Below, one piece after another: positions 43,363 through 46,538 of a stretch of DNA of 55,646 nt. The notes under the pieces are model-generated. The model was given only the letters and a program-made list of their open reading frames with translations, ran no database searches and had not been told where the DNA came from. The position numbers and the translations under genes were made by a program. Origin of the DNA: Gammaproteobacteria bacterium (lineage in GTDB: Bacteria > Pseudomonadota > Gammaproteobacteria > JAADGQ01); assembly GCA_015490755.1 (NCBI GenBank), contig WFXF01000049.1:1-55646 (forward strand), in the 5' to 3' direction. Numbering within the stretch: position 1 is the first letter of the stretch; each line of letters begins with the position of its first letter.

Positions 43363-45057
43363 TTACACCAACAGCATTTCATTTAATCCCGCACCAGCGG
43401 GAATCATCGGATAGACATTTTCAGTTGGATCAGTATGGAAATCCAGAAAGACCAGGCGATCTTTCAGCTTCATGGCTTCTTCCATCGCCGACTTCACATC
43501 CTCAGGTTTATCAATACGAATCCCGACATGACCATAACTTTCAGCTAATTTAACAAAGTCAGGCAATGACTCCATGTATGACATCGCGTAACGCTTCTCA
43601 TAAAAAAACTCTTGCCACTGGCGCACCATTCCCAAAAAGCCATTATTCAAATTTACAATTTTAATGGGCAGACCATACTGAAGGCAGGTTGAAAGCTCCT
43701 GAATACACATCTGGATACTACCCTCCCCCGTTACAACAGCAACAGTTTCATCGGGATGTGCAAGCTGTGCACCCATAGCGGCTGGCAAGCCAAAACCCAT
43801 TGTGCCAAGCCCACCAGAGGTAATCCAGCGATGTGGTTTATCAAATTTGTAAAACTGAGCAGCCCACATCTGATGCTGCCCTACGTCAGTTGTCACATAA
43901 GCACTACCTTTTGTCACATCATAAAGAGTCTGAACTACAGCTTGCGGTTTAATTTTTTTAGCGCAGGTATCAAACTTCAAACATTCAACTTTACGCCAAC
44001 CCTCTATTTTATCCCACCAATCACTCAAAGCTTGCTCATCAGGGGTTCTTTCAATAACACTGAGCAACTTGAACATCTCTTTTAATACATTGCCGACAGA
44101 TCCCACAATCGGCACATCAACCTTAACATTTTTTGAGATCGATGCAGGATCAATATCGATATGAATAATTTTTGCAGTCGGACAAAACTTTTCGATTTTA
44201 CCAGTCACACGATCATCAAAACGTGCACCGATAGCAATCAATAAATCACACTCATGCATCGCCATATTAGCTTCATAAGTGCCATGCATTCCCAACATTC
44301 CCAGGAATTGTTTGTCCGTTGCAGGATATGCTCCTAACCCCATCATAGTACTTGTGATGGGAAAGTTTAACGTTTGAACAAATTCAGTCAGCTCTGCCGA
44401 TGCCCCATCAAGAACGACACCTCCGCCACTATAAATTATCGGACGACGTGAATTCAGTATCATTTCCACAGCACGCTTTATTTGCCCTGCATGCCCTTTC
44501 ACTACAGGGTTATAAGAGCGAATGCTGATATTTTCAGGGTAATCAAACAGAGCTTTATCCGCAGTAATATCTTTTGGAATATCAATGACTACAGGGCCAG
44601 GTCGCCCCGTAGTCGCAATGTAAAATGCTTTTTTAATCGTTTCAGCAAGGTCTTTAACATCTTTGACCATAAAGTTATGCTTAACACAAGGACGTGTAAT
44701 TCCTATCGAATCCACCTCCTGAAAAGCATCATTACCGATCAAACTTGTAAATACCTGCCCTGTAAAAACGACCATAGGGATAGAGTCCATATAAGCCGTA
44801 GCAATACCCGTAACTGCATTTGTTGCGCCCGGACCTGAAGTCACCAGCACAACACCAGGTTTACCTGTTGCACGCGCATAGCCATCTGCTGCATGGGTTG
44901 CTGCTTGCTCATGCCGAACCAGTATATGCTTTATATCTTCCTGCTGTTCAAGTGCATCATAAAGATTGAGCACCGCTCCTCCTGGATAACCAAAAAGATA
45001 CTCAACCTTCTCTTCCTTTAAACAACGAATGAATATCTCCGCGCCGCTTAGCTCCAC
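43363..45057 (-). CDS. ilvB: Acetolactate synthase large (catalytic) subunit
   Basis: A 564-residue thiamine-diphosphate enzyme, counted from the GTG at 45057. That start has a GAGGGG ribosome-binding site 8 bases upstream; a TTG at 45072 would add 5 residues. The catalytic glutamate is in LVRHEQAATHAADGYARATG (about 50). The ThDP motif reads TGEGSIQMCIQELSTC then NLNNGFLGM. It leads the ilvBHC unit. The closely related ilvI symbol is equally possible. Confidence 0.95.
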   Translation of the reverse strand: MELSGAEIFIRCLKEEKVEYLFGYPGGAVLNLYDALEQQEDIKHILVRHEQAATHAADGYARATGKPGVVLVTSGPGATNAVTGIATAYMDSIPMVVFTGQVFTSLIGNDAFQEVDSIGITRPCVKHNFMVKDVKDLAETIKKAFYIATTGRPGPVVIDIPKDITADKALFDYPENISIRSYNPVVKGHAGQIKRAVEMILNSRRPIIYSGGGVVLDGASAELTEFVQTLNFPITSTMMGLGAYPATDKQFLGMLGMHGTYEANMAMHECDLLIAIGARFDDRVTGKIEKFCPTAKIIHIDIDPASISKNVKVDVPIVGSVGNVLKEMFKLLSVIERTPDEQALSDWWDKIEGWRKVECLKFDTCAKKIKPQAVVQTLYDVTKGSAYVTTDVGQHQMWAAQFYKFDKPHRWITSGGLGTMGFGLPAAMGAQLAHPDETVAVVTGEGSIQMCIQELSTCLQYGLPIKIVNLNNGFLGMVRQWQEFFYEKRYAMSYMESLPDFVKLAESYGHVGIRIDKPEDVKSAMEEAMKLKDRLVFLDFHTDPTENVYPMIPAGAGLNEMLLV

Positions 45058-45797
45058 GACAACACCCCTCAAATAGAACCGCCAATAAACAAACGCGCAA
45101 TTGTAGAAAGGTGCTGAGCAAATAGCAATTTTTCGTCACGCTTTATAAAAAGAGTTACTAATAGCCAATCAGTCAAACCAAGTTACACACATACCCATTT
45201 CACTATATATGTCAACTATCTTTACAAAAAAAATAAAAGAATAACAACATAAACTCGATATAACATATTGTTTTATATAAACTAAATAACTACTTAATTC
45301 AATTTAAAAAATTTTCACTAACAATAAACAAGTAATTTTTTGCAAATTCACCACATTTAATCCACACACTTATCCACAAGGCATCACATCAAACACAATT
45401 TTGTCAAAAATTTTAAAAGTCAATAGAAATCAGCGTAAAATTTACTTTTTTTTATAAAAAAAGGATTGACAAAGTCATTTACACACAATTTCTAATTGCA
45501 AAAACCACAAATATAAAGCGTATATATATACAAACAAAGAATCTAGCCACTAAAACTGTAACGCATTGATTTTATTAAAATATATATAAAAGATGTTTTT
45601 TTGTTCAATTTAACAGAATGATAGTAATAGTGCGGCTTAGAAGCATTTCACCCCAATTCATCCACAAAGTTATCCACAAATTTTGTGGATAACTAAAAAA
45701 TCAGGAAAATTCAATAGATTAACAGCGAAATAAAAAGAAAATTCACCCACTAAAATAAGAAAGCAAGAGCGATAAAAAAGCTTCAAAAAAAACCTGA
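45058..45797. other. AT-rich intergenic region with clustered DnaA boxes
   Basis: This 740-base gap between ilvB and dnaQ is among the most AT-rich of the window; 45241-45360 has about 18% G+C by hand count. It contains perfect DnaA boxes (TTATCCACA) at 45370-45378 and 45670-45678, and one in the reverse direction at 45684-45692. One-mismatch boxes lie at 45358-45366 and 45658-45666. The 45668-45694 pair forms a 27-base palindrome. No GATC was seen. No gene is evident. It must also hold the ilvB promoter. Confidence 0.65.
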
Positions 45798-46538
45798 TTA
45801 GTTAGGCAATGATTTCCACAGACATTCGTCTTTACTCCCTTTAGAAACAGCATCAAGAGACCGCATATGCAATGCCAGCTCTTCTGCTGTTGGCTGAATC
45901 ACTTTTAACCTGGAGCGATCTTCAGGCAGACGATGAATCTCTTGCTGGGTATTTTTTATTCCCGCACTATTTTCATCATCACCCTTTCGATCTTCATCAC
46001 CGAGCAGCAGGCTCACCTGCCCTCCAGTCATGGTCAAATAAACTTCAGCAAGAATCTCTGAATCGAGCAATGCGCCATGCAAATCACGCTGAGAGTTATC
46101 GATACCCAGTCGCCGACACAGCGCATCCAGACTATTGCGCTGACCAGGGTATTTTTGGCGAGCCATTTTAAGAGTATCAATCACACTACAATGATCATCT
46201 ACTTTTGACCATACAGCTCCTTTTAGCCTTTTTAGTTCATGATCGATAAAGCCAACATCAAACGCAGCATTATGAATAATGAGTTCAGCGCCCTCTATAA
46301 AGCGCATAAACTCATCAACGACATCTTCAAAACGCGGTTTATCAACCAGGAATTCGTTCGTGATTCCATGAACCTCCATAGCTCCCGAATCGATTTTTTG
46401 ATCGGGTTGTAAATATTGATGATAATGCCGCCCGGTTAAGCGGCGTTCAACAATTTCCACACAACCGATCTCTATAATGCGATGCCCTTGCCTGGGTTCC
46501 AGACCCGTTGTTTCAGTATCTAATACGACTTGCCTCAC
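45798..46538 (-). CDS. dnaQ: DNA polymerase III epsilon subunit (3'-5' exonuclease)
   Basis: A 246-residue proofreading exonuclease of the DEDDh type. Exo I is VLDTETTGLEP, Exo II is HNAAFDVGFIDHEL, and Exo III is HGALLDSEILAEVY. A QVSLLL stretch shortly after may be the sliding-clamp contact, and the C-terminal tail would bind the alpha subunit. The start is a GTG preceded by AAGGTG and lies 3 bases after the trmB stop. Confidence 0.95.
   Translation of the reverse strand: MRQVVLDTETTGLEPRQGHRIIEIGCVEIVERRLTGRHYHQYLQPDQKIDSGAMEVHGITNEFLVDKPRFEDVVDEFMRFIEGAELIIHNAAFDVGFIDHELKRLKGAVWSKVDDHCSVIDTLKMARQKYPGQRNSLDALCRRLGIDNSQRDLHGALLDSEILAEVYLTMTGGQVSLLLGDEDRKGDDENSAGIKNTQQEIHRLPEDRSRLKVIQPTAEELALHMRSLDAVSKGSKDECLWKSLPN

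Follow-up and report, generated by a model that had tools for sequence, protein, structure and literature searches.

The AT-rich gap between ilvB and dnaQ in this gammaproteobacterial genome very probably hosts a DnaA-reactivating sequence (DARS) of the DARS2 type, an activity that we infer from the architecture of the locus. Within the window, that is, the whole stretch of 55,646 nt that we analyzed, this gap contains three exact and two one-mismatch DnaA boxes (at 45358, 45370, 45658, 45670 and 45684), as the initial annotation had listed them. Its descriptions of the gap as gene-free and AT-rich, of a 27-nt palindrome that holds two head-to-head boxes and of the absence of GATC across the gap were also borne out, while the fixed 3- and 5-nt spacings between the boxes, the 33-nt repeat, the exact IHF consensus and the weak R-boxes at 45477 and 45479 were not part of it. 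The locus is composed of the following features, with negative distances counted from box III of the respective module.

43363-45072, minus strand: ilvB-type acetolactate synthase large subunit gene (Pfam); its start at 45072 borders the gap
45073-45797, no strand: gap of 725 nt, free of ORFs according to the ORF list, with two tandem DARS2-type modules
45183-45191, plus strand: weak DnaA box of the upstream module, TTACACACA, at -175, found by alignment
45261-45273, plus strand: IHF-like site of the upstream module, TAACATATTGTTT, one mismatch, at -97
45347-45379 and 45647-45679, plus strand: 33-nt direct repeat, 85% identical, copies 300 nt apart
45358-45366, plus strand: DnaA box III of the upstream module, TAATCCACA
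45370-45378, plus strand: DnaA box II of the upstream module, TTATCCACA, exact
45477-45487, plus strand: weak upstream DnaA boxes, ATTTACACA at 45477 (-181) and TTACACACA at 45479 (-179)
45559-45571, plus strand: IHF site, TAACGCATTGATT, at -99
45658-45666, plus strand: DnaA box III of the core, TCATCCACA, one mismatch
45668-45694: palindrome of 27 nt (arms of 13 with 1 nt between), formed by boxes II and I
45670-45678, plus strand: DnaA box II of the core, TTATCCACA, exact, 3 nt past box III
45684-45692, minus strand: DnaA box I of the core, TTATCCACA on the minus strand, exact, 5 nt past box II
45798-46538, minus strand: dnaQ, DNA polymerase III epsilon with an RNase_T exonuclease domain (ORF list and Pfam); its stop at 45798 borders the gap

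The G+C content of the gap is 27.2%, with 15% in the lowest 100-nt window (from 45214) and 21% in the lowest 200-nt window. Three exact DnaA boxes compare with approximately 0.026 expected under the Markov model of the gap itself (0.036 per kb). A non-coding RNA in the gap was rejected because no Rfam match was found there.

The core shows the geometry of both E. coli DARS1 and DARS2: box III and box II on the plus strand 3 nt apart, followed after 5 nt by box I on the minus strand. The two E. coli elements share one spacing, and box I opposes boxes II and III in both (PMC5742627), so that the window holds the three boxes, the orientations and the spacings of a DARS. In the MG1655 sequence, the DARS1 core reads TAATACACA-TGG-TTATCCACA-GGAAT-AGTGGATAA and the DARS2 core TTCTTCACA-ACT-CTATCCACA-GAAAA-GGTGAATAA. 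When the mismatches to TTWTNCACA are summed over the three boxes at the 3- and 5-nt spacings, the window scores 1, DARS1 2 and DARS2 3. Other E. coli DnaA sites score higher (polA 5, datA 6, oriC/mioC 7, purH 7, nrdA 7, nrdD 7 and dnaA 8), and no DARS core was found in oriC, datA, dnaA, polA, purH, nrdA or nrdD of this species. Cores with four or fewer mismatches were also absent from 20 Mb of Markov sequence generated with the model of the gap or of the window.

The region upstream of the core resembles that of E. coli DARS2, which lies between rppH and mutH in MG1655. Besides an intergenic core with the same orientations and the same 3- and 5-nt spacings, both have an IHF site upstream of box III, in the same orientation and with the same consensus, and extra DnaA boxes 180-300 nt upstream. 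The site in the window agrees with the DARS2 IHF consensus TAAnnnnTTGATW (PMC8682772) at every position and lies between the core and the upstream region, as in DARS2. Its position is -99 rather than the -87 of IBS1 in E. coli, a difference of 12 bp, or approximately one helical turn. We located IBS1 at -87 and IBS2 at -71 in the MG1655 sequence, 3 bp apart as published (PMC4245941); in E. coli, more activity survived when the IHF site was shifted 10 bp away from the core than when it was shifted by 5 bp (PMC4245941). Each of the weak boxes at 45477 and 45479 has one mismatch to TTWTNCACA and lies where other cores carry a box, but on the plus strand at -181/-179, whereas the upstream box of E. 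coli DARS2 is on the opposite strand at -185. A further difference concerns Fis. E. coli DARS2 needs FBS2-3, the Fis sites that precede its IHF site, whereas the window has no recognizable ones: with up to two mismatches to the consensus GNTYAWWWTTTRANC, none was found upstream of the core and a single two-mismatch match was found downstream of it. The element also lies between dnaQ and ilvB, away from the mutH neighborhood of DARS2. Because the IHF region is DARS2-like but the Fis sites are missing, we consider the locus a DARS without filing it as a strict member of DARS2.

DARS1, located between bioD and uvrB in E. coli, has the same core but, unlike the window, no IHF consensus upstream, and its accessory region is short (PMC5742627). 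Homologues of DARS2 in Enterobacterales, Vibrio and Shewanella conserve the core and a genome position similar to that in E. coli (PMC8682772, PMC4245941). Compared with these, the host of the window is distant and the neighboring genes differ, and the layout of the window, with its IHF site and a box near -178, is common to many other gammaproteobacterial lineages.

The window further differs from E. coli DARS2 in being a tandem with a decayed second module, as well as in its other neighbor genes. The box pairs at 45358/45370 and 45658/45670 both have a 3-nt spacer and both lie inside the 33-nt repeat. The first pair, 300 nt upstream, belongs to a second module that keeps boxes III and II and the IHF-like site and has lost box I, which is expected at 45384-45392 and reads TCACATCAA there (five mismatches). 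Judged from its sequence, the upstream module is a decayed DARS2-type copy. An intact tandem occurs in G002, a genome of the same family and another genus, where two modules approximately 368 nt apart adjoin dnaQ on its other side.

If the locus acts as its E. coli counterparts do, ADP-DnaA would bind side by side on boxes III and II and head to head on box I (PMC8682772, PMC5742627). IHF would bend the AT-rich DNA so that the upstream stretch and the DnaA box within it touch the core, and the strained ADP-DnaA oligomer would release ADP. Nucleotide-free DnaA would then leave and bind ATP, which would enlarge the pool of ATP-DnaA for the next initiation at oriC. Such a DARS would act in trans and would not itself be an origin. 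The box near -178 may replace the Fis-dependent contact, which is our own addition to the E. coli scheme. The genome of the window encodes DnaA, Hda, IHF-alpha and Fis, all above a family cut-off; a search for DiaA that had no positive control returned no match.

The initial annotation had proposed the locus as a replication origin, and the ingredients of an oriC are indeed there, in that an AT-rich tract (45142-45341) that could serve as unwinding element accompanies the five boxes and the IHF site. The cluster is the densest among the stretches of this genome that we examined, nowhere else in the assembly do three exact boxes fall within 1 kb, and neither dnaA nor mnmG of the same genome has a convincing box cluster. 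However, the locus shows none of the switches in skew and gene direction expected of an origin; ilvB and dnaQ are both on the minus strand, a co-directionality that the annotation had already recorded. Conservation in close relatives is also missing, as the dnaQ-ilvB gap of a congener (G001) is approximately 100 nt long and box-free; the element has thus either arisen in the window's genome or disappeared from the congener. The three-box layout is that of DARS and not of E. coli oriC, and a better candidate for an origin exists elsewhere in the congener (G001:C9:99894-100046). Taken together, the lack of a switch, the absence from the congener and a place upstream of the ilvB promoter segment argue against both an origin and promoter control. 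In the window's genome, the corresponding contig (C72) stops at the tRNA gene, just before the place of that candidate; the oriC of this genome is therefore not located, and we keep the origin reading as a highly improbable one. The gene for DnaA was found on another contig of this 94-contig assembly, in a canonical yidC / dnaA-dnaN-recF-gyrB locus, in agreement with the earlier remark that it does not adjoin the gap. A paralogous cluster at G000:C87:25.9 kb was rejected as a canonical oriC beside mnmG, as its 624-aa neighbor is a GGDEF/EAL regulator and mnmG lies on C56. In the congener, the candidate oriC falls in an AT-rich gap (G001:C9:99720-100070, within the first 3 kb or so of L234) between a tRNA gene and a trmL-like gene of 176 aa, approximately 26 kb from dnaA. 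Five boxes, two of them exact, lie there within 153 nt, with a tract of 16% G+C, a switch from minus- to plus-strand genes and a skew switch.

That the locus is a functional DnaA-binding element, as first annotated, is supported by our analysis, and two further readings concern what such an element might do outside an origin. A datA-like site would titrate DnaA or stimulate the hydrolysis of ATP on DnaA, the latter being the activity of datA and opposite in effect to that of DARS (PMC5742627). The window shares DnaA boxes and an IHF site with E. coli datA, boxes flanking an IHF site are the general plan of datA (PMC5742627), and any high-affinity cluster titrates some DnaA. Of this proposal, the notion of a non-origin site that acts on DnaA stands; the datA layout does not, because E. 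coli datA has no inverted box I at a distance of 5 nt and with it lacks the DARS trio seen in the window (six mismatches over the three boxes), whereas box I is conserved in the class of elements to which the window belongs. A datA-like function is thus unlikely. It is very unlikely that DnaA regulates a promoter of ilvB or of another neighbor from this gap, although the element lies within the upstream region of ilvB and many related cores precede priA by 90-200 nt and point the same way, making local regulation possible in that subgroup. A distance of 586 nt separates the core from the ilvB start upstream of which it lies, and dnaQ ends before the core. The promoter-like site at 45128-45100 falls in the ilvB-proximal segment 45083-45139, which is 95% identical in the congener that lacks the element. 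We rejected promoter control of ilvB on this distance and conservation, which, with the place of the core downstream of dnaQ, make the suggested control of ilvB or dnaQ improbable. In addition, equivalent elements adjoin unrelated genes in both orientations, and the 1.5 kb upstream of priA in the window's own genome contain neither a core nor an exact box.

The reading as a DARS2-type element can also be set against other cores in the same genome and beyond. Another core with an IHF site, beside a hutZ-like gene, is common to the window's genome (G000) and the congener. Two weaker DARS-like cores in G000 (L036:6355-6389 on C8 and L037:4238-4272 on C81) have no IHF site at -99; their neighbors are a BaiN-like/DASS gene pair and an ABC-F-like gene.

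The core geometry recurs widely in related genomes. The pattern TCCACANNNTTATCCACA was found in 34 of 56 of them, with no match for the reversed control, and the inverted pair with a free spacer, TTATCCACAN{0,20}TGTGNATAA, has matches in 30 of the 56. The spacer of this pair is 5 nt at every listed site bar one; the exception, with a spacer of 17 nt, joins box III of a perfect core to the box I of that core. When seeds were defined without box I, it still stands at 5 nt in 23 of 30. Scanning named genomes yielded at least 116 loci, nearly all from Gammaproteobacteria in the GTDB sense among the matches listed, including Legionella, Pseudomonas, Lysobacterales, Woeseiaceae, Nitrosomonas, Methylococcaceae and others. 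Among the matches listed, 132 cores, phylogenetically non-independent, have a complete upstream region. An IHF consensus occurs at -100 to -97 in 58 of these, which is fewer than half (control offsets: mean 0.3, maximum 2); 67 have a plus-strand DnaA box at -181 to -175 (control: mean 1.3, maximum 4) and 40 have both.

The neighbors of the core change with the lineage. Outside the lineage of the window, the recurrent ones are priA (approximately 30 loci), a hemW-like gene, in some cases with an M48 peptidase gene, and xseA. The finding of the same architecture beside priA, hemW-like genes, xseA and dnaQ suggests a function in trans. The rppH/mutH context of E. coli DARS2 is essentially absent, with one rppH neighbor among the cores, and a gene context conserved with E. 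coli DARS2 was accordingly rejected.

These distributions allow a broader proposal, to which we give about even chances. A layout in which the core is accompanied by an IHF site at -99 and, instead of Fis sites, by a DnaA box of the same orientation at approximately -178 may represent an old means of recharging DnaA that is widespread among Gammaproteobacteria (in the GTDB sense, with the former Betaproteobacteria included). Such elements would be fixed at lineage-specific places (priA, hemW-like, xseA and dnaQ) and would be gained, duplicated in tandem and decayed within genera, as in the window. We found no description of the layout with the IHF site at -99 and the box near -178 in the DARS papers that we consulted. 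DARS are known from studies of E. coli and its near relatives. If the proposal is true across distant Gammaproteobacteria, the recharging of DnaA from ADP to ATP would be a general part of the cell cycle, Fis may be a dispensable partner and the site would be able to move between genome positions. Origin finders built on clusters of DnaA boxes will take DARS sites for oriC.

In many gammaproteobacterial lineages, the cores linked to priA share its direction and lie 90-200 nt upstream of it (L165, L204, L207, L208 and approximately 30 more). The location is possibly old and possibly has a role in the control of priA. The hemW-like neighborhood is seen at L087, L084, L097, L102 and L137 and that of xseA at L083, L103, L115 and L121. 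L087 is labeled Candidatus Planktophila (Actinomycetota), but its neighborhood is gammaproteobacterial and the contig is therefore probably misbinned. Over 139 cores, conserved bases also occur at approximately -67 to -47, between the IHF site and the core (around 45591-45611 in the window); they read roughly TTTTTGnnCAA and match neither the DnaA, the IHF nor the Fis consensus. One complete genome, G046, has two DARS-type cores no more than 6.5 kb apart (C1:1738946 and C1:1745437, L208). These lie at 0.14 of the half-chromosome from dnaA, and the cores of other complete genomes at approximately 0.15 and 0.54-0.68.
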